From Anagrus nilaparvatae (taxonomy: Eukaryota > Arthropoda > Insecta > Hymenoptera > Mymaridae): a stretch of DNA of 64,000 nucleotides. The notes beneath the pieces are model-generated. The model searched no databases. It saw only the letters and a program-made list of their open reading frames with translations, and had not been told where the DNA came from. Each line of letters begins with the position of its first letter. Position 1 is the stretch's first letter. Positions 1,791 through 51,329 of this stretch are shown piece after piece. Location: assembly GCA_022575985.1 (NCBI GenBank), contig JAKSXM010000007.1, positions 32,614,501 to 32,678,500 of the forward strand, given 5' to 3'. A program made the translations under genes and the position numbers.

Positions 1791-1829
1791 AAATATTTTC
1801 ATTAAAAAATCTTAAACTATAGTTTAAGA

Positions 1830-4340: not shown

Positions 4341-4344
4341 TAAT

Positions 4345-4865: not shown

Positions 4866-4867
4866 TA

Positions 4868-5357: not shown

Positions 5358-5379
5358 ATAATAATGTTAAAATTCTTAC

Positions 5380-7653: not shown

Positions 7654-7806
7654 GAAAATACTTAGACATGGGAAAGAATATTACTCATTCTCGAGCGTAT
7701 AAATATAAATGCTTTTAGGTTGGCGGCGTTAGCCGCCATCCTAAAAATATTTATATTTATATGCTAGAGGATGGGTAAATATTCTTTCCCACGTCTAAGT
7801 ATGTTT
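7654..7806. mobile_element. ~150-bp hairpin MITE
   Basis: A nearly complete palindrome. The left arm (AATACTTAGACATGGGAAAG onwards) pairs with the right arm ending CTTTCCCACGTCTAAGTATG. The short loop near 7728-7740 carries GGCGGCGTTAGCCGCC, itself a perfect hairpin. Arms of about 70 bp have few mismatches. It lies inside the left arm of the 6531-11038 foldback. Confidence 0.8.
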
Positions 7807-7807
7807 T

Positions 7808-8203
7808 TTATAAATTAGTGATAAAGAATTTATCATTATTTATACAGGTACACGTGTAACAAGATCAAATTTCTATAGGACTTTTAAATTCTGACAATAA
7901 AACGTCAACCCCATAGCACCGCTGTTAATAATATACGTTCAATCCCCTCTCCTAAATATAAAAACTATGCCTAGAAAGCGATCGATAATTACATTCTTAA
8001 CTTTTGAATAAGCGTGTTTTTGTACCTTTTTTTTTGTTTCAAAGCCGTGGAAGAATGTGAAAATTGAATAATAAAATATTATATGCTAATGCGCACGCTT
8101 ATTGCAGGATTTAAAAGTACTATAAGAATATGATCTTTTCCACGTGTAGTTGTGTATAAATAATGATATAATTCTATGTTACTAATTTATAAAATTATAT
8201 TTT
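7808..8203. mobile_element. ~395-bp MITE with ~90-bp inverted ends
   Basis: Left end (TATAAATTAGTGATAAAGAA, then ATCATTATTTATACAGGTAC, then ACTTTTAAATTCTG) reappears inverted at about 8108-8200. The inner part contains no gene. It directly follows the previous hairpin MITE, suggesting an insertion hotspot. The target-site duplication is not certain. Confidence 0.65.
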
Positions 8204-8500
8204 TCTATTTTTTCATGTTGAATATTCGCGGTAAATAATGTTTTACGTGATATTGTAATTATTTGATTTATCGGCCCCCCGTTTTAGGGCCCCTTCTCTC
8301 ACGTTAAACTTTCACCGGCTCTATAAAACCGATTCATGTTCTCATTCTGTGGTCGCGTCGGCGGTCGCGCTCGTAAGACAATTTTGGTCATGCACCGCCC
8401 AGCGTATTAAACATAAAGTTATCAGAGAACTAAAAACAGTGCTTAAATTTAATTTAATTAATTCAAATCAATTCATTTTTCTTTAACGCCAGCGATCAAT
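8204..8500 (+). other. GC-richer island with a TATA-like core
   Basis: Between two MITEs lies sequence with unusually high GC for the window (about 8270-8400). It contains CGGCCCCCCG, TATAAAA at about 8321-8327, and a CGCGTCGGCGGTCGCGC block 30-45 bp downstream. The spacing resembles a TATA core promoter with a start near 8352, but no open reading frame follows before the next MITE. It could be a stranded promoter or part of the interrupted insertion. Confidence 0.3.
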
Positions 8501-8502
8501 AA

Positions 8503-9008
8503 GGCTGATTCCAGACGGAGCTCTGTTAAACGTGCGGTTAGCTCAAATCTGTAGTTATACCTGTGGTTAGATTTTGTTGCCAACCTATGCGTCAGACCTA
8601 CGCGAGATAGCTTCCTTATCGATGAGAAGTTTATTTAATTATTTTCTGCTCCTAAAAATACGTAAATAAAACTTTAGAAATAAAGAATAAGAAAAAAAAA
8701 TAATAAGTTAAATTATTTTGTATTTTTATGTAGTATATAAAAATAATTTTAATATTATTATGAATAATATTATAATAATAAAAGTATAATTAACTTTTTT
8801 TTCATATAAATAAAAAAGAGTAAATATAACTTTTTCAGTTTTATTTACGTATTTTTAGGAGCAGAAAATAAATTAAATAAACTTCTCGTCGATAAGGAAG
8901 CTATATCGCGTAGGTCTGACATTTAGGTTGGCAACAAAATCTAACCGCGGGTATAACTACAGATTTGAGGTAACCGCACGTTTAACAGCGCTCCGTCTGG
9001 AATCAGCC
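8503..9008. mobile_element. 506-bp PIF/Harbinger-like MITE, TAA duplication
   Basis: Inverted termini GGCTGATTCCAGACGGAGC and their complement are flanked by TAA on both sides (8500-8502 and 9009-9011). Arms of about 180 bp contain GTTAAACGTGCGGTTA, GGTTAGATTTTGTTGCCAAC and AGGAGCAGAAAATAA. A 3-bp TAA target and a GG-starting terminus are typical of PIF/Harbinger. The superfamily call rests only on this. Confidence 0.75.
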
Positions 9009-9011
9009 TAA

Positions 9012-9180
9012 CTATATTTATACAGTCCACTAATCTAACATTTAATTATTTGTATATAATATATTCAATAAGTGCGTTTTAATAATTATTTTATTATTTT
9101 AATCACGTGTGAATTTATTTATAAACCCAAACCAATTTTCCTACAATTTCCCCAAATATTTCCTCCAAAATATTACAAAT
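9012..9180. other. Spacer inside the foldback left arm
   Basis: AT-rich sequence between the Harbinger-like MITE and the resumption of the foldback at about 9180 (ATGGTGGTCAGAAAAA). No feature was identified. Confidence 0.35.
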
Positions 9181-11820
9181 ATGGTGGTCAGAAAAACTTA
9201 AATTTTGATATTTTTTGATAAAAATTTGTGTGAATGGTATTTTTTTGGGTGCTAATTACGAATATATAGTTATTTATCAAAAATTTTTAAATGGCGGAAC
9301 CAATATGGCAGTTTCAAAACTCAAAATTTCGAGATTTTTGACGATTTTAAGCCTGAGCAGAAACTGTAAGTTATATAACCATAAAACCGGTTTCAGTTAG
9401 GGCATTTAAACATTTTATGTGGAAAATATAAATTTTTTTCGAAAAAAATTCAAAATGGTAGATAAAGATGGCGGACACGAAAAACTAAATTTCGTTATTT
9501 TTTGGTCAAAATTTGTATACAGGGTATTTTTTGGATGCTCATTACGAAGGTCTATCTATTTTTCAAAAACTCAAAATGGCGGATCTAATGTGGCTACTGA
9601 AAAATGCGAAATTTCGAGATTTTTGACGATTTTGAGCCTGAGAAGAAACTGTAAATAGTATAAGCGTAAAACCGGTTTTATTTAGGGCATTTAAACATGT
9701 TATATGAAAAAATGAAAATTATTTATTAAAATTCAAAATGGCCGATCAATATAGCGGACACAGAAGAAACTTACAGTTTCTTCTTAGTCTCGCCATTTTG
9801 AGTTTTTGAAAAATAGATAGATAAATAAATATTTTTTCACATTACATGTTTAGATGCCCTAAATGAAACCGGTTTTATGGTTATATAACTTACAGTTTCT
9901 GCTCAGGCTCAAAATCGTCAAAAATCTCGAAATATCGAGTTTTTCAACGAACATATTGGTTCCGCCATTTAAAAATTTTTGATAAATAACTATATATTCG
10001 TAATTAGCACCCAAAAAATACCATTCACACAAATTTTTATCAAAAAATATCAAAATTTAATTTTTTCTGACCACCATATTAGTCCGCCATTTATAAATGT
10101 CCGCCATTTTGAAATTATTTTTGTGTTTTATTTTACTAATTTGAGTCAAATGCTCTAAATGGAATAGGTTTTACAGCTCTGTCAAATGCAGTTTCTTCTT
10201 AGGAATCAATGGGTTAATCGTGTAGGGGCAAAGAAACGCATTTTTTGAGTTTTGAAGGGGTGGGGATGAGCTCCCCCTCCAGGACAAGACTGATATCGTT
10301 AAAAAATAATTTTCTTTGCCTTTTTAGTCCAATTTGAAAGAATTAAAGGCAGGTATAATTTTTTAATTTCAAAAAAACTGATTTTTCGAAAATGTAAAAT
10401 CAATTTTTGGGCTCTTAAGGTGGTCTTGAGTGGTCATAAGGGTCTAAAAACAATAATTAATGAAATATATTTTAGTTAAAACGTATAAATAGATGCTCAA
10501 AAAGATTTAGGGAGGTTCTAAAACGAATTTTTCCAATTCTATTGCATTTTAATCGTGTAGAGGCAAAAAAACGCGTTTTTTGAGTTTTGAAGGTGTGGAG
10601 ATGAGCTCCCCCTCTAGGACAAGACTGATATCAGTAAAATATACTTTTTTTCAACTTTTTAGGTCAGTTTGAAGAAATTTAACGCTGGTTATTTTTTTTT
10701 ATGCTCAAAAAACCAATTTTTCGAAAATGAAAAATAAATTTTCGGGGTCTTAAAATGGTCTTAAAGGTCTAAAACCAATGAAGATTGAAAATACACTCTG
10801 TGCCCTTTTTTTCTACGCAACTTTCAGATTAATAGCTCAACACAGTGCGGAGAAACAAAAAAAAACGCAAAAAACACGATTTTTAAGGTTTTTTAAGGTT
10901 GAAGGGCGCCTAATATGGGCTAGGAAGCTAATTCCAACGGCGATCGGTTAGTTTTCATAATATTTTTCGGATGCGAATAATTTTTTTGATATTGGGGAGG
11001 GGGGCCAAATCACTATATTTATCCGGCAATAGCCTTTTTATCAAATTTTTAAAAACAAAACCTAAAAAACTGAAAGCCGAGGAAAAATTTTTTTATAAAA
11101 AAAAAATTTATTCTATTTGGGTATATTTGTTACTTATCCACCTAAATTTTCAAGGCGATCGGCTCAATCTGTCAAAATTTACAATAATTTTTCAAAAATT
11201 ATAAAAAAAAAAAATTAAAAAAGCAAATTATAAAAGTTTAGGACTAATATTATATATATTTCTAATTTTTATCGGCCACAGATGTAGTAACTAAATACAG
11301 TAACTAAAAGAAATTTGAACAGCTATTATCAGGCAGAACCCTTGAATGGGTAGTTGAGGGAAAAAACGACTGTTTATGGATCCTATGGAAGGGTATCGAA
11401 GCCTTGTATTGCTGATCATTAATTTATCCGTCTGGGTTCATATTTCATATGTCCGTAATTTTTATGATTCAAATTAAAATTTAGTAAATTTTAGATAATA
11501 CTTCGGGTAAAAAAAGGTTACTTTACAAAATATTGAGTAACCTAACACAAAATATCTTTGGAAAAATCAAGTTGCAGGGGTCCAGGGGAGTGCAGCTCCC
11601 ATGGTGGCTGCCAGGGCGAGCGAAGCGAGCCAGAGGCAGCTAGTATATTATAAGTGAGATATAAATATAATGTACGTGTATAATAAAATATTTAATACAA
11701 TTTAATCTATTAAAATCAAATCTTTTTATTTATTTTATTTTAAAGCCTCTTATTTAGCCATATATGTAAATATACATATTTTTTTCTTTTTTTATATATA
11801 TATAAATATTTATTTTTATA

Positions 11821-13464
11821 TCTTAATACTATATATATTTGAAAATTTATTTGTTTGTCTGTCTGTCTGTCTGTCTGTCCACTCATCACGCAAGAACCAC
11901 CGAACCAATTGGCATGAAACCGGTGTCAAAATAAAGATAAAAAGTCTGCGGGTAACATAGGCTCTATATTTTCTGATTAGCTGTCGTAGTTTTTGAGATA
12001 ATTAATTTTTAGTATTTTTGAACTTGATAACATTTTTTAAAAATTTTAACAAAAATTGAAATATCTCGAGACTATCGAAAAATTTAGCCATCGCACTTCA
12101 TAGTATTCGATTCAGCACTAATTTTTACGTATTCTCTGAAATTTTTATTCAAAACGGAGGTATCTTTAAAATTTTATAAAATATTTTTAAAGCTGGTGAA
12201 AAAATTTTTTTCATTTTTTTATTTTTATGGTATTTCTTATCATTTATTTGTGGGTCTGTGTATATTATAATGTAATTTATATTCTATATTAAAATGTAAT
12301 TTATGCGTACTTAGTTAAATTTTTATTAAAAACGTACGTTGCTTTAAAATTGAAAAAAAAAAAAAAATAAAATTTTTTACTATATCTTAATACTATATAT
12401 ATTTGAAAATTTATTTGTTTGTTTGTCTGTTTGTCTGTTTGTCTGTACCCTAATGACACAAGAACCACCGAACCGATTGGTATGAAACCGGCGTCAAAAT
12501 AAAGAAAAAAAAAATGCGGGTGACATAGGCCCTATATTTTCTGATTAGCTATCGTCGTTTTTGAGATATTTAATTTTAAGTATTTTTGAACTTGATAACA
12601 TTTTTTAAAAATTTTATCGAAAATTGAAATGTCTCGATACTATCGAAAAATTTTGGTATCGCACTTCATAGTATTCAATTCAGTACTAATTTTTACGTAT
12701 TCTCTGAAATTTTTATTCAAAACGGAGGTATCTTTAAAATTTTATAAAATATTTTTAAAATTTTTTACTATATATTATATATATTCAACTCAAATTTTAG
12801 GGTATAGTATATTATATTATTTGTTTGTTTTTATTATATTATTGTATATTATATATTTGTTTGTTTGTCTGTTTGTCTGTTTGTCTGTACCCTAATGACT
12901 CAAGAACCGCCGAACAACTTGATATGAAACCAGTGTCATAATAAAGAATAAAAGTATTTGGATAACATAGGCTATAGTTTTCTGACTCAGATTTCTTACT
13001 TTTGGAGACATTCAATTTTTACTATTTTTAGGATGTATAAAATTTTTTGTAAATTTGCTTAAAAAGTGAAATACCTAAAAATATGATTAAATTTTACTGT
13101 CACAATTGGTATTACTTAATTTGGCACTAATTTATACGTACTAAGTTAAATTTTTTTATTTTCTCTATTATAACTAGAGAATCAATCAGAACCTATAATT
13201 TTTCATTAATGTTTCACCTACGCTGCTCTGAATAGTTTGAATGTGTTTGCATAATTATAAATTTGTAGAGAAACATGATTTTTTTAAGCAACAGAAAAGT
13301 ATTGAAATAAATGTGAACAGGAGGGACTGAGTCTCATTCGAAAAATCTGAATGTGTTTGCATAATTATAAATTTGCAATGAAAAATGATTTTTTGAAGCA
13401 ACACAAACAGAAGGAAATGTGACACAGGGGGGGGGGCGGAGCCCCCCCCCCCAACTTTTGCTAG
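11821..13464 (+). mobile_element. Helitron family A copy 1 with duplicated 5' end
   Basis: The element starts TCTTAATACTATATATATTTG, followed by GTCTG repeats. It ends with a subterminal hairpin (a G run, GCGGAGC, a C run, 13427-13452) and TTTTGCTAG at 13464, before T in a TA-rich target. These match the 5'-TC / hairpin / CTRR-3' rule for Helitrons inserted at A|T. A second 5' terminus identical for about 30 bp begins at 12385, and GTCTGTTTG repeats occur again near 12865. It therefore looks like a chain of 5' modules sharing one 3' end. No Rep/helicase is encoded. Confidence 0.82.
11850..11880 (+). repeat. (GTCT)n microsatellite in Helitron 5' end
   Basis: A run of TTTG/TCTG tetranucleotides, expanding in each Helitron A copy (also near 12415-12450 and 12860-12890). 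It belongs to the element's subterminal region. Confidence 0.7.
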
Positions 13465-13601
13465 TATATATATAAATATTTATTTATTTATTTATTTATT
13501 TTTTTCATCAATTTATCTATATAAATATATTCTTAATTATCTTTATCATCTAAAATTATTTTAATTAATATTATTAATTTTCTAGCTTTAGTTTCGTTTA
13601 A
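13465..13601. other. TA- and TTTA-rich spacer with TTAA target
   Basis: A TATATA run and (TTTA)n tract follow the Helitron. The segment ends with TTAA (13598-13601), the left target duplication of the next MITE. Confidence 0.5.
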
Positions 13602-14319
13602 GGCGCGATTCTGATTTTTTAATTAAAAAAAACGCACTTTTAATTTTTGAATAACTTTTTTATTTTAATATATATTTTCAAATTGTTTTTTTTAAATGAA
13701 AATACAAGTCTTAAATTACAAGTTTTTTGTATTGTTTTATTTTTTTATTGTTCCGTCTTGTAAATATGGCCCGGCAATTTGAAGGCTTGTATTTTGCGGT
13801 AACCAGGATATCTCCACTCCAGGTACCTTGAAACAAAAAAACCCAACGAGGTCATTTTTAGAACCGTTATACCTAGTGCGGAAACCAACAAAATTTTGAA
13901 ATTTTACAAAAATAAAAAATTGGACCGTAAAAGAAAAAAAAAATCAATTTTCGCGCACGAAATTAGAACTTGTAAGTTAAAAAAAAAGTACAAAAAAGGC
14001 AATTTTATATATTTTTGTTGGTTTCCGCACTGGGTATTTAGTTTATAAAAAAAATAAAACAAAAATCTAGTCAATCCAACCATTATTTTTAGAGCAATCC
14101 TGGTTACCGATTTCAAAAAATGGTTTCGAGAAAAACGTGTTTAAAGTTGTTTTTTCCCATTCACAAACCTGGTTTCCTGCTTACAACAACGTTAATATCT
14201 TTTTAACGGTAACGAATTTTTGTACAAAATTTTTTTTCCATATTCTTGAAACATTTTTACACACGAAAAAAAATCAAAAAAAAAATCAATAATTTTTTTA
14301 AATTTATCAGAATCGCGCC
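13602..14319. mobile_element. 718-bp TTAA-target MITE (piggyBac-like)
   Basis: Inverted ends GGCGCGATTCTGA and TCAGAATCGCGCC are flanked by TTAA at 13598-13601 and 14320-14323. The interior has further symmetry (GTTGGTTTCCGCACT near 14018-14032 against AGTGCGGAAACCAAC near 13876-13890). The TTAA footprint is the piggyBac signature, but a longer terminus would be needed to fix the superfamily. Minus-strand reading frames inside are low-complexity and not proteins. Confidence 0.75.
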
Positions 14320-14323
14320 TTAA

Positions 14324-14885
14324 ATTATTTAGGTGATAATAAAAGCTATTTTCCAAATCACAATTTAACTCTATAGTCTTTATATTTTTCACAATCAATA
14401 ATTGAATGAAATATAGAAATTCTCTGTGCACAATATTCACAATAATCGTCCTCATTCAAAGTGTAAATCTTCTTTTTAATTAAGACTCGTCTATTATAAA
14501 TATTCATTACTCTTAATTGTGATAATATTTTTTTATGATTTATTGGTATCTTAAGATTTAGATAGTTATTATATGATTTTATTTTAAAAAGCCGCAGGTA
14601 TATAGTTAATGATGTACTGGTTTCAATAATCAAAATGTTCTTTTTTACTATAACTTTTGAATTCGTTAATTAGATTTTCTTTTTCTTCATAAATGTTTCT
14701 AGTGTTAAATTATTAAATTATTCCATTTTTCCTATTTTTTATAAAAAGTATTTTTTTTAATCTGGTTAATACAGTTATAAGTTATGTTTAACTTATTACT
14801 ATTTGCTAATTCTATGAGCTTTTTAAAGCAAATTTTAGGTATTCTTTCCTCTTGCATCTCGAGCACGGTTAGCTTGAAAGATCGG
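14324..14885 (-). mobile_element. 3' part of a LINE (minus strand)
   Basis: This holds the C-terminal tail of the LINE ORF2 whose EN and RT regions lie at 24480-27000. Above about 14640 the frame is broken, but FKSYSKKEHFDYWNQYI-like text still fits the linker before the C-terminal domain. The LINE 3' end lies next to the TTAA MITE. Confidence 0.7.
14357..14633 (-). pseudogene. LINE ORF2 C-terminal domain with CCHC motif
   Basis: About 90 residues in frame, ending at a stop just after DCEKYKDYR. The segment LRVMNIYNRRVLIKKKIY followed by CEYC(x7)HSIIDC has the form LR..N..R...C-x2-C-x7-H-x4-C found at the end of ORF2 in APE-type LINEs, where it aids RNA binding. The first Met is not a true start, because the sequence upstream continues in another frame. 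Confidence 0.75.
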
Positions 14886-15007
14886 ATTATGAAAAAGTCA
14901 GGCACTTCGGATTTTATAGCGAAAAATGAATGTTTAACCTATAAGAAAATAGTAATTTTTTGGATTTAAATGTTAAATTTATATTTTTGCGAGTTATTGG
15001 ATAAATC
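14886..15007. repeat. Left arm of a foldback inside the LINE
   Basis: About 120 bp (AGGCACTTCGGATTTTATAG, then AATGAATGTTTAACCTATAA, then TGGATTTAAATG) is repeated inverted at 24371-24475. The pair forms an element inserted into the LINE, and its loop was later invaded by a MITE and the 9-kb hAT-like element. Confidence 0.75.
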
Positions 15008-15318
15008 GTGTCTCTTGGTGAAGGTGAAAATGAGCAAAAATTTGCCTGCACTGCTCGGATCAAGCGATCAAGCTGAAATTTTCAGAAAATGTTGCTTTTT
15101 TAGTCACCTGAAACATGTTCAAACCCATTTTTGAAAATCAGTCATCTTTTTCGAGATATTTATCAATATGTCTCCCATTTAAAATACATAGGATGACTGA
15201 TTTTCAAAAACGGGTTGGAACATGTTTCAGGTGACTAAAAAGGCAACATTTCCTGAAAATTTCAGCTTGATCCGAGCAGGGCAAAATTTCGCTTATTTTC
15301 ACCTCCACCGAGAGACGC
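15008..15318. mobile_element. ~310-bp palindromic MITE
   Basis: The ends GTGTCTCTTGGTGAAGGTG and CACCTCCACCGAGAGACGC are complementary. Arms contain GATCAAGCTGAAATTTTCAG and its complement, GTCACCTGAAACATGTT, and GATGACTGATTTTC, and meet near 15165. It lies next to the left end of the hAT-like element. Confidence 0.8.
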
Positions 15319-15610
15319 ATTTTACCTAGTGATGGACGAGACCACGAGACTGGTCTCGATCTCGTCTCGGTCTCGTATCTTTTTCAAAATTTTTTTTGAA
15401 AAATAATTTATATGAAAAATTTAAATTTAAGTACAAAGAAGTCGTAAGCTTTTATTGCATACTTAATAAATGTATACTTAATTGCGGTAGGATCATGGTA
15501 AGATCAAACTTTTGACAAAAAAAAATGAAATAAAAAAATTTATTCTTATTTTTTTTATACATTCAGTACTAATACGAATAGAAGATAATAATAATAATTA
15601 TTATTATTAA

Positions 15611-17317
15611 TAGTCTTTCTTTGCCAAAACAGCAATGGTGGACAGGTCGGGTCATCGGATCGGCATCAAATTTTTCCCATGTTTTTATAACATAAAGATA
15701 GGAAAATCCTGAAATTTTTAGCCTTCTAGATCTTAAACAGCCCGAGTTATGGCCAATCAAACTCATTAGGCGGCTCTCGACCAGCGTTAGCGCTTTTCGG
15801 GAAAATGGTTAAAAATCATAAATATAAGCATAAAAAAAAATTCTGAAAGAGTATATATGTTGGGAAACCTTCAGTAAATCCATTTCTGTGCTTAGTTTTT
15901 CGGAAAAACCCCGTGAAATTCCGGAAAATGGGAAAATGCGTTTTAAGAAAAATCGCAATATCTCATTTTCCGCCATTTTTTTTTTGAAAATTTTTTTCAA
16001 CCAAAATCTCATCGATCTGTACGAAAAAAAAATTTGATATCGGCCATTAAGGTCGATTTTAGTCTGTTTTAGAATAATTTAACATTTTCAATACTTCTTT
16101 GTTTAATTTTCCGTAAGGGGTTAAAATACTTGACTTTTTTGCTTTCAGAATCGAATAGCCAGGGAAAAAGTAGTCCTAAATAAAAAAAAATTACTATTTT
16201 CGATGAAAATTAACCAAGTTATGGACAAGTAAAGATACTGTCAAAAACTACCAATTTTATACTAATTCCAATTTTAGGCTCTAAAACGACATTATAACTT
16301 GAAAAATGCATAACTCGCTTAAATTTTATCGTAAAAAGAAAAGTTTTGGATTATTATTGAGTGTTTTTTCCTTGGCTATTCTTTTATGCAAGAAAAAAAA
16401 TTAATTTAGTCGTTAAAAAGTTTTTTTTTTGTAAAAAACTAATGTAAAATGTTAAAAACTGTTTTTGATTATTATCATTTTTAAAAAAAAAAATTTTTGT
16501 CAATAAAATTAATTTTTTTATTGGATAAACGAATAGCCAAGGAAAAAACACTCGATAATAATCCAAAACTTTTCTTTTTACGATAAAATTTAAGCGAGTT
16601 ATGCATTTTTCAAGTTATAATGTCGTTTTAGAGCCTAAAATTGGAATTAGTATAAAATTGGTAGTTTTTGACAGTATCTTTACTTGTCCATAACTTGGTT
16701 AATTTTCATCAAAAATAGTAATTTTTTTTTTATTTAGGACTACTTTTTTCCTGGTTATTCGATTTTGAAAGCAAAAAGTCAATTATTTTAACCCCTTACG
16801 AAAAATTAAACAAAGAAGTATTGAAAATGTAAAATTTTTCTAAAACAGGCTAAAATCGACCTTAATGGCCGAAATCAATTTTTTTTTTCGTACAGATCGA
16901 TGGGATTTTGGTTGAAAAAAATTTTGAAAAAAAAAATTTCAAAAAAAAAATGGCGGAAAATGAGATATTGCGATTTTTCTTAAAACGCATTTTCCCATTT
17001 TCCGGAATTTCACGGGGTTTTTCCGAAAAACCAAGCGCAGAAATGGATTTACTTAAGGTTTCCCAACATATATACTCTTTCAGAATTTTTTTTCAAGCTT
17101 ATATTTATGATTTTTAACTATTTTCCCGAAAAGCACTAACGCTGGTCGAGAGCCGCCTAATGAGTTTGATTGGCCATAACTCAGGCTGTTTAAGACCTAG
17201 AAAGCTAAAAATTTAGGATTTTCCTATCTTTATGTTATAAAAACATGTGAAAAATTGGAGGCTGATCCGATGACCCCACCTGCCCACCATTGCTGTTTTG
17301 GCAAAGAAAGACTTTTA
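15611..17317. mobile_element. 1.7-kb near-perfect palindrome inside the hAT-like element
   Basis: The left end AGTCTTTCTTTGCCAAAACA is matched by the complement at 17298-17317. The arms match along their full length (GCCGCCTAATGAGTTTGATT, TTTTCCGGAATTTCACGGGG and CCTTGGCTATTC blocks) and meet near 16430-16500. Mirror-image reading frames at 15809-16012 (minus) and 16908-17117 (plus) are copies of one another through the palindrome, and are not evidence of a gene. Confidence 0.85.
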
Positions 17318-17767
17318 AGTATATTTAAAAAAATGGAATTATTAATTTTTGCTATAAAGTTCGCAGCTGCCCTAATAAATATTTTATATTTTTAAACAGT
17401 TTAACTTAAGGGGCTGTAAACGCTATATTTCTAAATTTTGAGGTTATTCCAGATGAACCGGAAATAAACTCAACGCGGAAATTTCAAATCCGCGCATCAA
17501 CCTGCTTTATTAATTTAAAACTATACTTCATAAAAAAAAAATCAAATGATAAAAAAGATAAAAATTTTCTACTATTTCTATATAAAAATAAAAGCATGCT
17601 TATTTTAAGCTTTAGTAAATTATTATATACTCAAATAACTTAAAAATTTAAAAGTGAACTTTTAATTTTATGTATTTATTAATTTACCAATATAACTAAT
17701 AAATTGATTTATAAATTTTAATTTATATAAATTATATTTATAAAGAGATATTAGTTTTATATAAATT
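17318..17767. other. AT-rich DNA, no gene seen
   Basis: Interior of the hAT-like element. One GC-richer patch near 17455-17510 (CAACGCGGAAATTTC, AATCCGCGCATCAACC) is not part of a recognised feature. Confidence 0.35.
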
Positions 17768-18035
17768 TTATCATTTTGATTGTCTAATTTGGGTTCAATC
17801 ATGCTACGAAACCCAAAAATGTACTTGTACAAAAACATAAATTATTTTTACGTTTATTTTTAGTGCAAGTAAAAAACATACATCAAAATGTTAATTTTTA
17901 TATACATTATATCATTTTGATTGTCTAATTTGGGTTCAATCATGCTACGAAACCCAAAAATGTACTTGCACAAAAACATAAATTATTGTTATGTTTATTT
18001 TTAGTGCAAGTTAAAAACATAGATCAAAATGTTAA
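17768..18035. repeat. Tandem pair of ~137-bp hairpin units
   Basis: Two direct copies start at about 17772 and 17908. Each runs from CATTTTGATTGTCTAATT, through TGGGTTCAATCATGCTACGA and ACCCAAAAATGTACTTG, to TTTAGTGCAAG and ATCAAAATG. Each unit is itself inverted end to end (CATTTTGAT against ATCAAAATG, and TGGGTT against AACCCA). Near identity suggests a recent duplication of a small MITE. Confidence 0.8.
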
Positions 18036-18928
18036 TTAATTTAAAATACTTAAGCAAACTTTAAAAAAACATGCAAAAAAAGTTATTAGCATAAGAATGT
18101 GTTAGTAACCGGAAACTACTTTATATCACATAACTTCTTCAGAAACAAAATTTATAGTAATAGTTATCGGTAAATCATGAAGTTTCCAAACCTGATCTAA
18201 TGAAAACTAAACTAATATGAAATCAACTTTACTATTAAATTATTAATATAATTTCATGCTTTATCAATTTTTTAACAATAATTTATTTAATTATTAATTT
18301 CTGTTTATTACTTGATTTTTTAATAAATCTTAAGTAGAATTAAATAGCCATTTTTTAACACAAATTTTTTAAAGCAAAAATTCATTGTTAATTAATTAAT
18401 TTAAATTTTTACAAAATGTTTTTTTATTTTTATAATTCATAAAAATCTAATCTTTTAATAAGACAAATTTTTAATAACGCCTTTATAATGTATAAATTAT
18501 GTTTGTGAGATCACAGTTTAAAATAAGAGCCAGGCTTAAATCTTCGCATAAATGATAGTGGACTCAAGCATTATATAAAAAATCTTATGCATCGAATCTT
18601 CTATAAGAACGATGAATCATTTCTAATCTCGTTTAAAGTTAGAGGCATAAGATCTTATATCGAAAACCTTATTCAAAAGTCACACAAGCATAAACATTGT
18701 ATTATCCATTCGAAAAATTCAAAAAATAAAAGAGTTTTTATACAGAAAACCTTATTTAATTATTTGAAATTTCATCTTTTTAAGCTAAACTAATACTTAG
18801 AAATCTTCTAATTAATAACCAAAAACCAACATCAAGAGTCTCCTAGAATATTTACTTGATAATCTGTACATGGTTATATTTGAAAAATCTGAATGAAGAT
18901 GCAATTGATAGTTTTCTATTGTACATAC
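18036..18928. other. AT-rich DNA with one unassigned short frame
   Basis: No family is recognised. A 68-codon frame at 18587-18793 (plus, Lys/His/Ser-rich) has no visible domain and an AT-driven composition, so I do not call it a gene. Confidence 0.35.
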
Positions 18929-19051
18929 TATCGGTTTTAAAAAGATATCAACTTCCCCCAACAGTACATTTCATTATTTTCAAATAAATCCTTGAAGAAT
19001 TCACAAAAGTACATCTAAATGGTGGTTCATATCTTTTTTAAACCGATAGTA
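18929..19051. repeat. ~120-bp inverted repeat
   Basis: ACTATCGGTTTTAAAAAGATA at the left pairs with TATCTTTTTTAAACCGATAGT at the right. The intervening ~75 bp includes TGTACTTTTGTG-like and ACAGTACATTTC segments that also partly pair. Probably a tiny MITE remnant. Confidence 0.65.
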
Positions 19052-19199
19052 ATCAGGTATTTATAGTAAATTAATCTAAATTCATTACCGCAATCCCCAT
19101 TATCTCCTATCTCCAACAAATTCAAAGCAGGAATAAAGATTTTTTTCGAAATTCAAATGTTTAAATTTGTCAAAGCTTTTACTAAAAAATAAAAAAAAT

Positions 19200-19803
19200 T
19201 AATCATAGGTTTGATCTTTTGCCCGTGTGATTTTTCTTCATTTTTAGCTGTTAGCATTTCGTCAACAACTTCTCTGCATGCTTCAAAAAAACTTTTAGAA
19301 CTAAAGACGTTGACAAGCTTAAGACCTCAAAGAAAGAGAAATTTTATCAGCATCATAATGGGTTATTGCTTTTGTAGGCAATTCTGATCGCCCAACTTGA
19401 AGAAGACTCTATACATAATAAACATACATTCAGGTTGCTTTTCTAAAACTTTTTTGTCATCTTTTTCAATAAGTTTATAATGTGGAGCTAATTTTGTAAG
19501 TGTACTTGCTAAACCTTTTGCAATAAAGAAGTTCCCATCCATCATATGCTGAATCGATATAGGATGTTTTGCTTACTTTTTACTATTAGTAATTGTATTA
19601 AATGCACCTTGAGTAATGTTTGTCCAACCAGATGTTACAAGTTGCGCAGCTTCATTCTCTAAATTTTCTCCAGATTTTCTTCTACTTTCCATTTCCGCTA
19701 AAGGCAATTTTACTAATCCTGCTCTAATACAATTCATAATATTTTCTAGAACATTTCCAATGTAAAACATTATTTTGAGAAATACTTGAGCCACGTAACT
19801 CAA
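19200..19803 (-). pseudogene. COPB1: Coatomer subunit beta (COPB1) fragment
   Basis: A relic of the middle of beta-COP, the ~950-residue scaffold of the COPI vesicle coat. The first block (19803-19573) has the pattern of the stretch before the linker (LPLAEMESRRKSGENLENEA, AAQLVTSGWTNITQGAFNT). After a stop comes MMDGNFFIAKGLASTLTKLA (about 19543), then KLIEKDDKK and ECMFIM. In a shifted frame follow GRSELPTKAITHYDADKISL and finally EACREVVDEMLTAKNEEK near 19240. The order and spacing match beta-COP, whose equivalents are LLDGDFF, ATTLTK, PITDDD, CR and ML-AK. Several stops and at least two frameshifts make it non-functional. No intron is obvious, so it may be a retrocopy. It lies about 90 bp downstream of the eIF2B-gamma relic, on the same strand. 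Confidence 0.85.
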
Positions 19804-19889
19804 CCTCGTTTTTTAAATTATACCAATCATTTACCTAAATCATATAATTATTTTATTATAAAAAAGAGTATTTTTAATTAAATTTTATT

Positions 19890-20690
19890 TTTTGTTCATT
19901 TTACTGACCACTGTATTAGTAAGACTATACATTTGCATTGCATTTGCTCGTAACCCAGATTTTTCAGTAAGTATATGTGCATAGTAATTTATAATATCGT
20001 CATAAAATACCTCATCTATGATTATTAAACGCAGACATATTTCTTATTGAAGCAATATAAGGCTTTTTTTCTGCAAAGCGGAAAATATCATTTTCTAAAT
20101 TTTTTGACAGATGCATTTTTTTCTTCTATATTTCTTTTAGGTTAATCTAGCCATATTTTAATGATGACAGCAACAATTCACCTTGTAATGTATTAAAATT
20201 TCTAAAAAAAATTAATTGTTTGAGAAAAAATAAAACTATAAATTCCTATTAATTTATAAAAAAATTCCAACATAACGGATGAATGTGCATCTTCTAGTAA
20301 TGTACAGTAAAATTTGAATGTTTTTTTCTCAAATGTGAAACCAAAGCTAAAAATACCATACGTCCAGCTTCATTATTGATTCCAATCAAATATCTTTCAG
20401 GTTTTGCTTACATTTTGGCCCAGGTACGATAAAATCTTCAGGAATCTTAGGATTCTGTAATATAACAAAGCCTATTATACTTGCATTATTTTTTTGATAC
20501 AAGTTTATTGTTTCAGAAATATTGATATTTGTAATTAAATCAGATGTTATAACAAGCATATCTTTGCAAATTTTATCATGAATATATTTTTAAGAACCAG
20601 CAGTACCAATTTCTTCAGATTCAGGAACATCTACAATATATCTAATTCTAATATTATCATAAGATTATATGATACTCCTTAACAGATCAA
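19890..20690 (-). pseudogene. EIF2B3: eIF2B subunit gamma (EIF2B3) fragment
   Basis: A relic of the gamma subunit of eIF2B, the guanine nucleotide exchange factor that recycles eIF2 in translation initiation. On the minus strand it reads VPESEEIGTAGS*KYIHDKI, then DMLVITSDLITNINISETIN, then IVPGPKCK. A one-base frameshift then leads to PERYLIGINNEAGRMVFLAL and LLEDAH. Near 20190 NTLQGELL appears, and near 19930 YYAHILTEKSGLRANAMQMY. These follow the order of the nucleotidyltransferase-like domain and its C-terminal extension (GTA.SL.YI, D.LV.SCDLIT, ..DAH). Missing are the N-terminus and the left-handed beta-helix. In-frame stops and a frameshift show it is dead. Confidence 0.85.
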
Positions 20691-21795
20691 AATTTCTCTC
20701 CACTCTTTTCCAAAAATCCAAAATGTTTTTCTTTTTTTTTTACACAACTTAACTAAAGTAAAATATTTTTTGTATTCTTCTCAATTTTTTTATTTAACTT
20801 TATATAAGCAGATCACAAATGAAAAACACTGTCAATAAAGACTAATCACTAAAGTGCCTAAGATTTAAGAATATAAGATTAAAGTTCCCAAGCACAAAAC
20901 AATATAAGACATTGTACATAATATGAAAGTCTTTGAAGGACATAATTATTGTAAACATATGATTGTTTATTCTTTAAAACCACTGCAAATAAATGAAAAG
21001 CACAAACACCATTTTTCAAACACGCAGAGATTTTATTTTCATATTTGATTAGAAGTTAGGTACTTTTGTTTATCGAAGCCACCGGCAAAAAAACGTGATA
21101 CTGCTTGATCAAGGAATCAAGCATCGAGTCTTTGACTTTGTTACTTGATTTTGCATTTGAAATGAACTAAAATTAAATATTAATATTAAACAAATTATTA
21201 TACTCCAAGCTGGAAAATCATCCTCATATACAGCAAGTCCTGCAGCATGCTATAGTCCTGCATCCATATGTCAACATAATATATTGCCGGCCCGCGAATT
21301 TTAAATCTTTTTTTAATTTTTTATAATCTTTTAAATAAAATAAAATCACCCGAATAATTTTTAATTAATTTTAAAAAAATAGCTATTTATTTACAATTAC
21401 TAAATTTCAATTTTTACCCATTTTATTGCATCATCATATTTACTATATATGTATATATGTAAATATGTATATGTATAATAAAAAAGGATGCGATTACTTT
21501 CATTTTGATCATGTGGTCTGGTCCTAAAACAAAAATTAAAAACCGCCTGGTCTTGCTAATATTGACAAGAGCTGTGGCACAACGAGACATAATCTATTTC
21601 TAAAAATTATAAAAAAATTAATTAAGGTGTCACTTTATTAATGGACTTAAAAATTATTTCTTGAAAATAGGCGAGTTAACGCCTAATCAAACATTCTTGA
21701 GCAGTTAAATATTTCGGAACGAACTTAACATTAGAGGTTGATACCGCATTTTTTGGGGACCATATATGTCAGCATTTACTGTAGACATAGAAAAA
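20691..21795. other. AT-rich interior of the hAT-like element
   Basis: No further exon of the flanking relics was recognised. The patch 21280-21300 (GCCGGCCCGCG) is GC-rich. The part from 21480 includes unassigned sequence leading up to the 21796 hairpin. Confidence 0.35.
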
Positions 21796-21837
21796 GCGAC
21801 CCAAATGACCTAACAAGGGGTCATTTGGGTCGGTCGC
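21796..21837. repeat. Strong 14-bp hairpin
   Basis: GCGACCCAAATGACC (21796-21810) pairs with GGTCATTTGGGTCG (21819-21832) and then GTCGC after a small bulge, around the loop TAACAAGG. It is GC-rich relative to the region and too short to be a MITE by itself. It may be the tip of a larger decayed palindrome. Confidence 0.7.
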
Positions 21838-23035
21838 TACATTGTTAGCCCAAAATATTTATTTTTTTATATTAAAAAAAAAATTCATTTGTCCAAGAAT
21901 ATAGAGTTCTGAAGAAGAATATTAACGCTAATTCATCATAGAATCAAATTTACAAATGAATGAAAAGAAAAAAATTATATACATATTGCTTGTCATAAAT
22001 TATTATAGAAATCAAAAATTAAAATGATTTAACTTATCAAATAACTTTGGAACTGATTTTAATCCTGGAAGCAGGGTAATTTCTATAAAATAAAATATTC
22101 AGGACAGTTTAGACTTTGAAAACGCCCTAATTGTTTCAAATTTTATCCAATGTATAAGTTAATTTAAATAATTTTGTTGAATTTAGAAAATTTTTAATAT
22201 TCAATTAATTTATTTTTACAAATTGGCATATTGTATAAGAATGATCGGAATCAGATAAACAATTTTTTCTTTTTGGAAAAACGTCATTTTTTAATTAATA
22301 TTTTTAAATATTGAAACCAAATTTATAAATACATATAAGTAAGTTTTTGGATACTCTAAGGCTATATCAGTCTAAAATTGTTGTCACAGGTTAATCATTA
22401 GTATTTAATTAATAGTTTGGGCTTGAGGGTACAACATAATTTCAATTTGGCGACTTAGAATAATTTAGGTTCAGGGAATTGAAAGTTGACCATTTTTCTT
22501 TCAACGTTTCAACAAAGTTATATATAAATATACTTTCAGTTATATTTCAATAAATATCTTAAAAATTGATCTCACATTCCTTTATTGAGATTAGGTTTAC
22601 AAAAGGAGTTTTTAACATCATGAAATTAGGAAAAACAGAATTCAATTTTTTTGAAGTTCAATTGAAAAAAGAGTATTGAACTTTTTAAGTCACCTTGCTG
22701 TTATCTTCTACTATTGGACTTTTTACCGAAACCTCCATCCGCTAATCGTACGATGTTCACAATAATTTTATTACTTTAAATAGTGAACCAATAATTAACT
22801 AAGTAGAGATCAGGTTTAATAAACTGAAAAGTAGTTAAAAATCATTGGATATCCAAATAATCTTTTTTTTATGAATTGGAAAATTGTAAATTTGATTTGG
22901 AAATCTTGTTATTAAGTCAGTTAATCTTACTAAAATATTGTCTTTGACTTGAGGATGTATAGAACGTACTAATATTAAAATGAGAAGCTGTTAATTGTTT
23001 TCACAAAAATTTAAACTTATTGTCATTAATTTAGT
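21838..23035. other. AT-rich interior, no gene seen
   Basis: Nothing recognised between the hairpin and the spectrin relic. The sequence is AT-rich with scattered short inverted repeats only. Confidence 0.35.
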
Positions 23036-23039
23036 AAAC

Positions 23040-23780
23040 ACAATTACTACATATCCTTGTATAACTTCATCAGGATAAATTTCTGGATTCTGACAAGTTT
23101 ATTTTGCTTTTTTGCTATCTAAGATTCTGCTTCACCAGCATCTCTAACAAATTGTTCATATGTAATAAACTTGCTTCTAATCTTACTTTCTTGGTATTAC
23201 ACCAACCTTGAATGTACGATCTTCTTTGTCGAACTTCTTCTAATCTTTTGGCTATTGTGGGGAATAAAAATGATTCTAAGAAAGTAATTTTTGTCCATTT
23301 GTGCATGAAGAGATAATAATTTTTCTTCTTGTATCACAAGTAATTTTTCAAATTTGTTATATTTTTTAACTTGCTCTTCTACTTCATCTACATACAGATA
23401 TTCCAAAATTATCATTATTTAGAGCTGCTTCTTGAGTTGTCGATAAATTGTCTAATTGTTTTGCATCTCTTAAAAAATTGCAAATCTATCAATTAATCTA
23501 AATGATTTTTTTTTTCCAAGCTTTGTGAGACTTCTGTCTTTCATCACAGATTATACTGCTTTTATCTAGAAGATGGGTCATTTATATTCAACTACCTGTG
23601 CAAATAAAACAGAGTATTAATTTTGGCATTCAACATTAATTTAAAATAGACATTGACTGCATAATGACCAGCTCGAGCCATTTTATCGAGCCATTCTTCA
23701 AGATCTAGCACAGAATTAAAAATATCTAAGTCTAATATATATCTAATATCTAAAGAGTTTTCTAATTAAAAAAAAATTAA
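23040..23780 (-). pseudogene. Beta-spectrin-type repeat fragment
   Basis: A relic of one or two spectrin repeats (three-helix coiled coils) from a beta-spectrin-like cytoskeletal protein. Reading down the minus strand: LDLEEWLDKMARAG (about 23690), FLRDAKQLDN..TQEAALNND (about 23470), VDEVEEQVKKYNKFEKLLVI (about 23390), QEEKLLSLHAQMD, then AKRLEEVRQRRSYIQGW and KVRLEASLLH (about 23200). In a shifted frame EQFVRDAGEAES follows. FLRDA..L..W, VE..I..H..FEK.L..QEEK and QF.RDA.EAE.W are the hallmark phrases of spectrin repeats, and DVE/FEK/QEEK is typical of the beta family. At least three frameshifts or stops interrupt it. Which spectrin it derives from is not determined. Confidence 0.75.
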
Positions 23781-24232
23781 TAATTTTGGTTAAATTTTGG
23801 CGTTGGATGTGACTGAAAATACTAAAATTCTTTAAAATATAACAATCCCTGTGTCAAAAATCTTTAAAGATCACAGCTAGCTGTTTCACATATTATTTTT
23901 CAGGAAACACTTCTTCAGCAGCTACATTTAAAATTCAATATTAAATATTATAAATGACCTGAATAGTTTTATTAGTTTTTGCCCTATACGATCCATTACT
24001 AACATAAATTCAAAACAAAAACTTTAATCAAAAATCACTTTATTATTTAAGAAAATTGGGATACTTATAAAAATTGGTATTCTTATTTATAAAAACAGTA
24101 GTAATACAATGAATGTTTTTAAATTCATAATCAGTTTTAGAAAATAATAAACTTATTTTTTACTATTTTATTTATATTCGTGTATCAAACAATATACATT
24201 TTTTAAATGCACATAAAGATAACTTACGTTTT
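23781..24232. other. AT-rich interior near the hAT-like right end
   Basis: Apart from the position next to the CGAGAC-rich subterminal region, nothing is recognised. It could be intron-derived sequence upstream of the spectrin relic. Confidence 0.35.
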
Positions 24233-24370
24233 TTTTAGACTGTCTCGAAAATCGAGACGAGACCGAGACGAGACCGAGTCGAGACCTCAATTTTTGAAAA
24301 TTTTCGAGACAGAGATGAGACTGACCCAAAATCTTGTCTCGTCTCGGACTCGTCCATCACTAGTTTTACC

Positions 24371-24475
24371 AAATAATTCGCCAAAATATAAATTTATCAT
24401 TTAAATCCAAAAAAGTACTAATTTCTTATAGGTTGAACATTCATTTTTCGCTATAAAATCCGAAGTACCCGACTT
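24371..24475. repeat. Right arm of the foldback inside the LINE
   Basis: The inverted counterpart of 14886-15007, with CATTTAAATCC, TTATAGGTTGAACATTC and TATAAAATCCGAAGTACC. It lies directly beyond the hAT-like element and its TSD, and is followed by LINE sequence. Confidence 0.75.
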
Positions 24476-24479
24476 AATC

Positions 24480-25700
24480 TACTCTTTTGAGCTATCTGTG
24501 CGAGGATTCTTTGTATAAAATAAAGTAAGTCTCTGAATAATCTTGTAACCTGCATACTATCTATTTCTATGTCTATTCTAATTACATACTCTGGTGTATT
24601 ATTTGGCATCTGAAGAAAATAATTTTAATTTTATGCTGTAGATGATACAAGTGCTTTAAATAATTGTATAGCGGTTTCTAAATTCATAAATTTTAATCTA
24701 TTTATCAGATTTATTGAAGGCTGTATTGCATTTTTACCTTTTGTTTTAAAGTAATCACATGCCTTATCAAATAAACTAGTACGTGAGATAGGAACTCCTA
24801 AATATGTATTTAGGAGTTTTTTTTTTTTTAAATTTCAAAAAATTTTCTAAGTTCTCTGCTCGATTCGGCAAGAAATATCATAATATCTGCGAATGCTAAC
24901 ATAACTATTTTTACTAAGTAATTTACTGATACTCCTTTCATATCTCTGCCAAACAAAAAATTTTCCATGTTAAGAATAGCAAAAATATTAAAGGGCTAAG
25001 GGTTTCACCTTGCAATACACTTATGGTAAACGGGATTTCATCAGAACTGCCCTCTTTACTTTTAATATCAATATTTGTTTTGGTATATAAAATAATAAAA
25101 ATATTTATTATTTTGTGGCTTACTCCAACTTGGCTTCATTTTTTCCACAATTAAGTGTGTGAAACTAAAGGAAACGCGTTCTTTAGATCCACGAAAAGGG
25201 CATAGACCTTCTTTCTGTATTTGTTTTTGAATTATTGCATTTAATACAAAAATATGCTCTGTCGTGCCTCTTCTTTCTATAAAGCCCGCTTGCCATTAGT
25301 ATTTTTTTGTTTTTTTCAGCCCATCTATTGAGTCTTATATGCAAAATCATTATAAATATAATTTCAAAATTGTATTTACCAACGAGATTGGTCGAAACTT
25401 TTCTGGTTGATTTTTATCAACTTTTTTATATAACATCTTAACAATAATTTTTGTCTAAGAATCAGGTATTTTTTTCTCTTTTCTTATTTTATTAAATAGT
25501 ACATATATATACATAAGCCAATTACTTGGCAAGTTTTCAAAAAATTCGTTTGAAACTTCATCCATACCAGGAGCTTTTTTTAATTTACATTTTTTTATTG
25601 CATTTATTAACTCAATTAGTGTCATTTCATCAACTAGCTCCGGGCATGCATTGCCACAAAGAAGTTTAAAACTACTGTCCATGATTCTTGGCAAGAACTG
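24480..25700 (-). pseudogene. LINE reverse transcriptase domain (broken)
   Basis: The N-terminal RT block is open at 25694-25455 (LIELINAIKKCKLKKAPGMD, then EVSNEFFENLP and IRKEKKIPDS). This is the K.KAPG.D..NE..K.LP..W motif that begins LINE RTs. Beyond it the frame is broken. Near 24905-24870 MLAFADIMIFLAES stands in for the catalytic (Y/F)ADD motif, with the second Asp missing by a one-codon loss. LNTYLGVPI appears near 24800, and MPNNTPEYVIRIDIEIDS near 24590 fits the thumb-linker phrase LP.NTP.Y.IR.E. The enzyme is inactive. Confidence 0.8.
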
Positions 25701-47945: not shown

Positions 47946-47970
47946 TAATGAATATTTCTTAAACTGAGTA

Positions 47971-51321: not shown

Positions 51322-51329
51322 CTAGAAGG

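Follow-up and report, generated by a model that had tools for sequence, protein, structure and literature searches.

The gene-bearing interval at positions 15327–24362 (9,036 bp) is, with high confidence, two nested transposons: a TTAA element with a ready-made gene cargo lies inside an older hAT element. An animal DNA transposon has indeed packed gene fragments here, and it is the nested TTAA element rather than the hAT. Such packing by transposons with terminal inverted repeats (TIRs) is well known in plants. An earlier note on this DNA had proposed that unrelated gene fragments were packed in a DNA transposon, which stands, and that the hAT was their captor and carrier, a role that passes to the nested element.

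The window is the whole 64,000-nt stretch analysed, from Anagrus nilaparvatae (GCA_022575985.1, contig JAKSXM010000007.1, 32,614,501–32,678,500, forward strand). C62 denotes the locus of the window, and C373 the contig with a sister copy of the cargo. The composite unit comprises hAT ends, a 1.7-kb inverted-repeat element and the TTAA element.

The hAT insertion

The hAT copy, its nested inverted-repeat element and the surrounding foldback are arranged as follows.

14863–15326: outer foldback (inverted-repeat) element, comprising the left arm, the centre and the start of the right arm (repeat search, arm alignment)
15319–15326 (+): left copy of the hAT target-site duplication, ATTTTACC, 8 bp
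15327–15609 (+): hAT left end with TIR TAGTGATGGACGAG and CGAGAC/GTCTCG subterminal motifs, family consensus 1–59 and 126–356
15607–17318: inverted-repeat element of 1.7 kb inside the hAT, with 92% similarity between its halves
17315–17409 (+): hAT copy resumed, family consensus 354–448, last bases CTTAA
24190–24362 (+): hAT right end, family consensus 1095–1278, with the inverted TIR at 24349–24362
24363–24370 (+): right copy of the hAT target-site duplication, GTTTTACC, 8 bp
24363–24501: remainder of the outer foldback's right arm (arm alignment)

The unit is bounded by a genuine insertion of an ordinary hAT family member. This insertion is real because 14-bp TIRs, an 8-bp duplication, an empty site, family pairs with 8-bp duplications and a transposase-bearing relative all accompany it. 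The TIR TAGTGATGGACGAG is present at 15327–15340 (+) and 24349–24362 (−), the sole two sites in the window at up to two mismatches; shuffled windows contained a mean of 0.05 sites, and two sites arose in 1 of 100 shuffles. Of the window's 22 CGAGAC/GTCTCG motifs, 14 fall within 49 bp of the unit's left end or 121 bp of its right end, and the flanks ATTTTACC and GTTTTACC agree at 7 of 8 positions. When the uninterrupted left arm of the foldback is aligned with the right arm that carries the insertion, a gap of 8 bp opens at the site of insertion, and the left arm serves as a paralogous empty site inside the window. The inverted ends, CGAGAC-rich subterminal regions, near-identical flanks and single hAT-like insertion into a foldback described in the earlier note are all borne out. 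At the edges of the nested inverted-repeat element, hAT consensus positions 354–356 are repeated as a 3-bp overlap.

The family consensus measures 1,278 bp, of which positions 449–1094 (646 bp) are absent from the window copy. The parts present diverge from it by 4.7% (23/494), a value derived from local alignments; the clock thus covers 494 bp and uses a consensus. An old hAT lineage could inflate a divergence of this kind.

A genome search with the exact TIR returned 95 sites, compared with none for the reversed-pattern control. Among 32 other hAT pairs, the duplication matched at 8/8 positions in 30, at 7/8 in one and at 1/8 in one; two of these pairs, L015 and L024, have one duplication in common and possibly represent a single locus that was assembled twice. 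One relative (L039/L040), which carries the same 14-bp TIR and is flanked by an 8/8 duplication, encodes a Dimer_Tnp_hAT domain (PF05699, E 1.7e-23) and a hAT-like RNase-H match (E 1.1e-5; 26.0 bits, below the cut-off of 27). It is split by a BEL/Pao element, and its ends match the family only partially (78–88%). The single hAT TIR match in viral contigs lies within apparent coding sequence and was taken as chance.

A TTAA element with a sister copy

Inside the hAT, the sequence follows the family consensus up to CTTAA and then continues as GGGGCTGTAAACGC. The features of the inserted element are listed below.

17406–24192 (+): TTAA (putatively Kolobok-like) cargo element with left end GGGGCTGTAAACGC and right end deleted, collinear with C373
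17406–17409: TTAA target site, common to the hAT consensus and the edge of the cargo element
17755–18036: tandem duplication of 141 bp, single in the C373 copy
18941–19063: 123-bp stretch missing from the C373 copy, by eye resembling a small TIR MITE
21562–22777: 1,216-bp stretch missing from the C373 copy
24190–24192: CAA microhomology at the joint between the cargo element and the hAT right end

The element aligns collinearly with C373:13204812–13209904 (−) at 2.0% substitutions (103/5,166). The C373 copy is complete (C373:13204299–13209904, 5.6 kb) and reads TTAA-GGGCCTGT...ACAGCCCC-TTAA, with TTAA and an inverted GGGSCTGT at either end. No exact hAT TIR occurs within 341 kb of it, the nearest lying 341 kb off; in the surrounding 40 kb, four sites fall within three substitutions of the hAT TIR, none exact and none closer than about 12 kb. 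The earlier note had set collinearity of the interior with a normal genomic locus against its own reading; C373 is indeed collinear, but the locus there is in turn a transposon.

The C373 copy is a sister and not the exact source, since stretches of 236 bp and 1,216 bp found in the window are missing from it. Because the right end of the window copy is lost, the TTAA insertion there has one edge and the C373 copy as its basis. TTAA is frequent in AT-rich DNA. With 40 of 368 candidates scored, a genome search with the interior placed the cargo only in the C62 window and on C373, between different flanks, and never inside a further hAT copy.

Host-gene relics and their parents

The cargo consists of four relics, all on the minus strand and amounting to more than 2 kb of gene DNA.

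19216–19754 (−): COPB1 relic, human residues ~471–655, without the parent's 62-bp intron
19772–20656 (−): eIF2B-gamma relic, human residues ~75–328 and, by eye, part of another exon; introns kept
22889–23096 (−): condensin complex subunit 1 relic; parent C317:17751060–17751267, 88%
23094–23727 (−): alpha-spectrin relic; parent C195:6495891–6496501, 82%; intron kept
23760–23882 (−): additional match to the alpha-spectrin locus; parent C195:6495435–6495541, 73%

COPB1, eIF2B-gamma and spectrin had already been recognized as minus-strand relics; condensin complex subunit 1 raises the count from three to four. The spectrin had been called beta, and it is alpha by its parent exon on C195 (E 4.9e-77 to alpha-spectrin versus 3.4e-32 to beta-spectrin). 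The eIF2B-gamma and COPB1 relics, previously placed ~90 bp apart, are fused within ~20 bp near 19755–19772, and the condensin and spectrin relics are fused with a 3-bp overlap. Within the eIF2B-gamma relic, 236 bp (20424–20659) are missing from the C373 copy. Parents reside on C95, C195 and C317, with the COPB1 parent on C95/C11/C113. Comparison with the parents, as the note had advised, revealed introns kept in eIF2B-gamma and alpha-spectrin; the intron is missing from the COPB1 piece, so DNA is only a possible source for it. Counting substitutions only, relics differ from parents at 99/878, 64/596, 57/537 and 25/208 positions (10.6–12% each). Lesions (a stop and indels) are common to the window and C373 cargo, and the relics decayed jointly before these two copies separated.

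Pfam and PDB searches with whole frames of the interior, one of them in a single frame, gave no match because the relics are too broken. No relatives of the eIF2B-gamma and COPB1 relics were found in a large protein database, Rfam yielded nothing at gathering scores, and a coding-looking short peptide near 21.2 kb had no PDB match. Outside the unit, a HECT relic lies at 5356–5775; it and a weak LbH_EIF2B match were the only results of six-frame Pfam over the rest of the window (1–15000, 24900–48000 and 52000–64000), a scan that missed all relics inside the unit and is thus no gauge of relic frequency outside it. Traced to a tandem array at ~39.0–39.2 kb, the weak LbH_EIF2B match was rejected (E 0.0073; 16.7 bits, cut-off 54).

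The TTAA family

Exact ends of the TTAA family number 24 left and 21 right in the genome, with zero for each control. Eight inverted end pairs no more than 10 kb apart (5.6–8.5 kb) were paired from coordinates, and an exact partner within 10 kb is missing for 16 of the 24 left and 13 of the 21 right ends. Four copies have at least 80 bp at the left and ~395 bp at the right in common, at 91–94%. Host-gene fragments are present in three of the four copies read, with PIWI-, PRPF6- and kinase-like sequences as further cargo, the PIWI piece in a copy on C95; the C1 copy has no gene by Pfam. All seven fragments (7/7) share one orientation, pointing from the conserved right end towards the left one. 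TTAA is duplicated at both edges of C373:13204299–13209904 and C1:32666203–32674656, and the window preserves the left edge only.

The element termini GGGGCTGT...ACAGCCCC conform to 5'-RR...YY-3' (GG...CC). In the available text of PMC9587614, Kolobok is characterized by TTAA duplication and 5'-RR...YY-3' termini and is contrasted with piggyBac. By target site and termini alone, the family appears Kolobok-like; TTAA agrees with piggyBac as well, and the termini fit Kolobok under that partial account. Six-frame Pfam of the copies L065, L067 and L068 detected no TTAA-family transposase, and one weak HTH_Tnp_Tc3_2 match was obtained (E 0.021).

With slightly more doubt than belief, we propose that this family is a recurrent gene packer in this animal, keeping its ends and swapping its interiors, with exons and introns, including the PIWI piece, facing one way. 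The conserved right end could be a promoter, or the side from which capture proceeds.

Order of events and alternatives

In the proposed sequence, a non-autonomous hAT entered one arm of the foldback and generated the 8-bp duplication. Later, in an order suggested by divergence, a TTAA element with four decayed gene fragments inserted at a TTAA inside the hAT; the exact left edge, the complete C373 copy and the family ends establish this insertion. A deletion of ~1.16 kb would then have removed the element's last 509 bp, the right TTAA and 646 bp of hAT, with the observed joint at the 3-bp CAA microhomology. The cargo would have been put together earlier within the TTAA element, with at least some of it drawn from genomic DNA or unspliced RNA, as the introns kept in two fragments suggest; template switching or end-joining repair inside the element may have linked gene-internal pieces that had little or no homology at their joints. 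Both elements would be non-autonomous, with the hAT mobilized by a transposase like that on C373:13551085–13563855 and the TTAA element by a transposase supplied in trans. Capture had previously been placed before the hAT insertion; the cargo most likely came after it, given a divergence of 4.7% between the hAT parts and their consensus against 2.0% between the two cargo copies.

A transposition-independent route, in which 5–7 kb copied from C373 or from a sister locus patched a break in the hAT, is improbable. It would account for the replacement of 646 bp of hAT by foreign DNA with 4- and 3-bp overlaps at the joints, which match the signature of single-copy animal Pack-TIRs given in the accessible part of PMC8277862, but it requires a chance start exactly at a mobile-element end and target TTAA, and the donor is on another contig. 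Still harder to sustain is capture and delivery of the fragments by the hAT itself. Two good ends and one duplication of the hAT do enclose the cargo, and hAT accounts for 208 of 370 animal Pack-TIRs in the same partial source; however, on its left the cargo is bounded by the terminus of a different family, one that has a target site of its own, a complete cargo copy without hAT ends exists on C373, the 40 candidates scored out of 368 included no further hAT copy with the cargo, and the divergence order is reversed. An ordinary decayed locus between two solo hAT MITEs, the outcome that the earlier note had named against itself, can draw on the HECT relic outside the unit and on an interior collinear with one other locus, yet is practically discounted by the one shared 8-bp duplication in place of two separate ones, the empty site, just two TIR sites in the window, and parents on at least three contigs, the two possibly both on C95 being more than 20 Mb apart.

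Two nested transposons thus remain our reading, and nesting can disguise one transposon as captor of another's cargo. The capture mechanism would become testable in an animal, given eight end pairs, a four-gene cargo shared by two loci, and family members that are loaded differently; cargo-bearing siblings could be compared with cargo-free ones, captures dated relative to their parent genes, and the cause of the one-way orientation addressed. PIWI is part of the host transposon-silencing machinery. If the family is indeed a recurrent packer, copies of host genes such as PIWI, in sense or antisense, could contribute to effects of small RNAs or chimeric transcripts.

Comparison with known systems

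The outer element resembles hAT MITEs in its short TIR, 8-bp duplication, subterminal repeats and hAT-transposase relative, with no essential difference. Gene-capturing Helitrons are similar in carrying several fused gene fragments with introns in one orientation, and an orientation bias of captured fragments is known for them. Helitrons are not known to have TIRs or a TTAA duplication, whereas the TTAA element has both. Kolobok shares the TTAA duplication, and the GG...CC termini fit its 5'-RR...YY-3' pattern (PMC9587614, in part); gene capture by Kolobok did not appear among the literature matches listed.

Plant Pack-TYPE elements, including Pack-hAT, span the CACTA, MULE, hAT, PIF-Harbinger and mariner superfamilies and are likewise non-autonomous TIR elements with captured gene pieces between shared ends (PMC8903248, in part); here, the host is an animal and the family a TTAA one. 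The TTAA element displays Pack-TIR/Pack-TYPE features, with host-gene fragments between TIRs in the complete C373 copy, parents elsewhere, and cargo in two copies at different target sites on C62 and C373 (40 of 368 candidates scored). Unlike the cargo of a Pack-hAT, it is not bounded by hAT sequence, its left bound being the TTAA-element terminus. The animal Pack-TIRs covered in the consulted portion of Tan et al. 2021 (PMC8277862) belong for the most part to hAT and Tc/mariner, are mostly single-copy and have a median duplicated size of 224 bp; neither Kolobok nor piggyBac is mentioned in the main text, and multicopy cases (four in reference genomes; Ssk-FB4 in flies) are attributed to transposition. 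They resemble the present case as TIR DNA transposons with duplicated host sequence and breakpoint microhomology, and differ from it in that here a TTAA carrier holds four gene fragments of more than 2 kb, in two copies, and has relatives with other cargo.

Outer hAT copy in the window

The unit at 15327-24362 is a single hAT insertion in a foldback, as the earlier note had proposed. Its terminal inverted repeat (TIR), TAGTGATGGACGAG, has two sites in the window at up to 2 mismatches, inverted and forming the two ends of the unit (1 of 100 shuffles also gave two sites). The unit's first 49 and last 121 bp contain 14 of the 22 CGAGAC/GTCTCG motifs in the window. The right arm of the foldback is interrupted by the unit, while the left arm is uninterrupted. 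Alignment of the arms places their difference at the insertion point, as the 8-bp duplication ATTTTACC/GTTTTACC, so that everything between the TIRs occupies a single insertion site. The following features were recognized in the window:

15327-24362, outer hAT copy with everything nested inside it
15607-17318, nested 1.7-kb inverted-repeat element
17406-24192, inner TTAA element, Kolobok-like, right end deleted
5356-5775 (-), open HECT-domain fragment of a host gene lying outside the unit (Pfam, E 8.1e-19), which we take to be HUWE1-like
47697-52337, LTR retrotransposon, Copia-type as judged by eye from its reading frames; its terminal 231-bp direct repeats are 99.6% identical
6530-7606/9961-11037, 36489-37060/42877-43448 and 58528-58994/60951-61416, inverted pairs with arms 92-99% alike; long inverted repeats are abundant in the window

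A search of the genome (488.7 Mb, 393 contigs) identified 95 exact TIR sites, 51 forward and 44 reverse, against 0 in the control. Pairing by eye within 15 kb joined 66 sites into 33 pairs, including the unit, and left 29 unpaired. The duplication is a perfect 8 bp in 30 of the 32 other pairs, 7/8 in one and 1/8 in one; L015 and L024, both among the 30, have identical duplications and may represent a double assembly of one locus. The 1/8 case, L041 (C373:14714417-14717931), carries internal deletions and is probably a rearranged or hybrid copy. The 1,278-bp family consensus was built from 24 of the 25 copies shorter than 1.7 kb (L011 was left out), which lie 0.3-3.1% from it. The window copy holds consensus positions 1-59, 126-356, 354-448 and 1095-1278; the interruption at 354-356 is the 1.7-kb element, and 449-1094 are replaced by 17406-24192. 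The outer element is a hAT and an ordinary copy of its family.

A 12.8-kb copy (C373:13551085-13563855), identical in its TIR and with an 8/8 duplication, encodes the C-terminal dimerisation domain of hAT (E 1.7e-23) and shows, slightly below the curated cut-off, a match to hAT-like RNase-H (E 1.1e-5), the two being split by a BEL/Pao retroelement; beyond the TIR, its ends match the family in parts only, at 78-88%. The length of L011, L012, L028 and L033 reflects nested insertions with their own inverted ends, as does one of two inserts in L023, whose second insert is larger; L025 and L041 also hold inserts. Two 2,454-bp copies, L030 (C213:7974475-7976928) and L042 (C373:16187376-16189829), have a common 1,155-bp insert at consensus 293-298 and different, perfect duplications, and this insert is possibly a capture mobilised by the hAT itself.

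The inner element and its sister copy

The earlier note had a non-autonomous hAT packing genes before its insertion. That agent is wrong: the observation was largely right, and what lies inside an ordinary hAT copy is a TTAA element of Pack type. Queried as DNA, 17324-24245 (70 matches, from the best 40 of 368 candidates scored) returned, besides itself, a single collinear locus, C373:13204812-13209904 (-), at 94-98%; the other matches listed were hAT ends, repeats and parent genes. The two copies differ by 103 substitutions over 5,166 aligned bases (2.0%). The C373 copy runs from TTAA-GGGCCTGTAAACGC at 13209904 to ...TGCTTCACAGCCCC-TTAA at 13204316-13204299, a length of 5,598 bp with the TTAAs excluded. 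The closest exact hAT TIR on C373 is 341 kb off, and the surrounding 40 kb contain four sites within 3 substitutions of that TIR, none closer than ~12 kb. The C373 locus is thus an element in its own right, and the inner element is not hAT.

At the left joint the hAT consensus has ...CAACTTAA-ATCAT and the window has ...TAACTTAA-GGGGCTGTAAACGC; the change of sequence coincides exactly with the TTAA and with the element terminus. The right joint, a 3-bp CAA overlap, lies 509 bp before the element's end, and a deletion of ~1.16 kb (509 + 4 + 646) would account for it. The 1,216 bp at 21562-22777 are missing from the C373 copy, and no source was found for them.

If rates were equal, the hAT copy would predate the cargo's arrival, since its parts differ from the consensus by 4.7% (23/494), and from any of the 32 other copies by 4.3% or more, against 2.0% between the cargo copies. 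The duplication, 7/8 here and 8/8 in 30 of the other 32 pairs, suggests this order too.

Parents and decay of the gene fragments

Parents of the relics, by DNA match: relic; parent; substitutions only; changes common to both copies, window-only, C373-only
eIF2B-gamma; C95:27795474-27796442; 11.3% (99/878); 81, 9, 25
alpha-spectrin; C195:6495435-6496501; 10.7% (64/596); 56, 8, 4
COPB1; C95:7090081-7090696 (candidate); 10.6% (57/537); 55, 4, 2
condensin subunit 1; C317:17751060-17751267; 12.0% (25/208)

The COPB1 (E 9.6e-23) and eIF2B-gamma (E 1.6e-11) relics named earlier were upheld, and so was spectrin, as alpha rather than beta: its parent scores E 4.9e-77 against alpha-spectrin and E 3.4e-32 against beta-spectrin. 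The condensin parent matches Cnd1 (E 1.2e-33) and Ycs4 (E 8.4e-26). For COPB1, loci on C11 (99.9% identical) and C113 (94%) are also candidates. The COPB1 region occurs in triplicate (C95:7085500-7095400, C11:132000-141900, C113:6270000-6279900), where C95 and C11 agree at 99.9% along 9.3 kb and C113 at 94% along 3.8 kb, possibly a haplotig plus a true duplicate.

Similar divergence from all four parents fits a single capture epoch. The 25 C373-only changes in eIF2B-gamma are probably inflated by misalignment at a 236-bp gap. The two copies have one stop and several indels in common, besides a few private ones, and the gene pieces were already dead when the copies separated. The spectrin-condensin joint is a 3-bp TTG overlap; eIF2B-gamma and COPB1 meet within ~20 bp.

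GT-AG sites and reading frame were assessed by eye on the relic-parent alignments. The eIF2B-gamma alignment covers one 68-bp intron and the greater part of another, and spectrin retains an intron that has lost 7 bp, which indicates DNA or unspliced RNA as the source of both. The COPB1 relic lacks its parent's 62-bp intron, precisely to within 1 bp; this intron may have been removed by splicing or by a deletion that happened by chance at a short repeat, or the piece may derive from an intron-less source copy.

The TTAA family

Exact genome matches number 21 for the right terminus TTAAGGGGCTGTGAAGC and 24 for the left terminus TTAAGGGNCTGTAAACGCTA, with 0 in each control. Pairing by coordinate yielded eight inverted pairs within 10 kb (5,606, 5,867, 6,667, 6,672, 7,429, 8,188, 8,454 and 8,470 bp). 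Four further possible pairs would cover 27-69 kb; with their ends included, 13 right and 16 left ends are without an exact partner inside 10 kb. Four complete copies were compared: C373, C1 (8.45 kb), C95 (5.87 kb; L067, C95:12361030-12366916) and C161 (6.67 kb; L068). All four have in common at least the last 393-396 bp (91-94%) and, on the left, at least 80-88 bp (80-91%) or longer stretches of lower similarity (70-78%). The C1 and C95 copies have additional common stretches within the first 2.7-3.4 kb (68-78%); the remaining interiors gave no match between copies at the alignment sensitivity used.

Host-gene pieces occur in three of the four copies; in the C1 copy, Pfam found none. In L067, six pieces of 1177-3207 match C62:20929372-20931657 at 81-89%, a parent whose open frames we read as a PIWI-family gene, part of the host transposon-silencing machinery. 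L067 562-863 matches C113:5711849-5712140 (83%), and its peptide, in our reading, resembles a PLK4-type kinase in its DFG segment; L068 990-1464 likewise resembles PRPF6. Among 13 translations of L067 and L068, Pfam detected a PAZ domain in one (E 1.8e-4) and PRP1_N in one (E 3.5e-6), the latter agreeing with the PRPF6 reading; the result names no translation, and the placing of both domains is ours. The PIWI-like stretch is also matched at distances of 0.9 and 2.8 kb from two more right ends (C113:10744213-10744960 and C62:65700540-65701145). All seven fragments, two of them by eye reading of the peptide, have one orientation, leading leftwards from the conserved right end. For independent fragments the two-sided probability of a common orientation is 1/64; those in one element may not be independent.

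Pfam revealed no transposase in the copies scanned; one frame of L067 or L068 gave a weak HTH_Tnp_Tc3_2 match (E 0.021). The family is accordingly named Kolobok-like only, by target site and termini: a TTAA duplication with 5'-RR...YY-3' termini is described as the Kolobok signature, in contrast to piggyBac (PMC9587614).

Comparison with known gene-capturing elements

The surprise is the TTAA family itself. The host genes, alpha-spectrin and the PIWI-like one, are what mark the genome as that of an animal. Among the matches listed from openly licensed literature on hAT, piggyBac and Kolobok gene capture, the excerpts contain no description of an animal TTAA family that packs genes. The closest survey, of 100 animal genomes, reports 370 Pack-TIRs, 208 of them hAT, and none in insect reference genomes, yet Ssk-FB4 in fly populations; the surveyed elements were mostly single-copy, with a median size of 224 bp, and were attributed chiefly to gap filling (PMC8277862).
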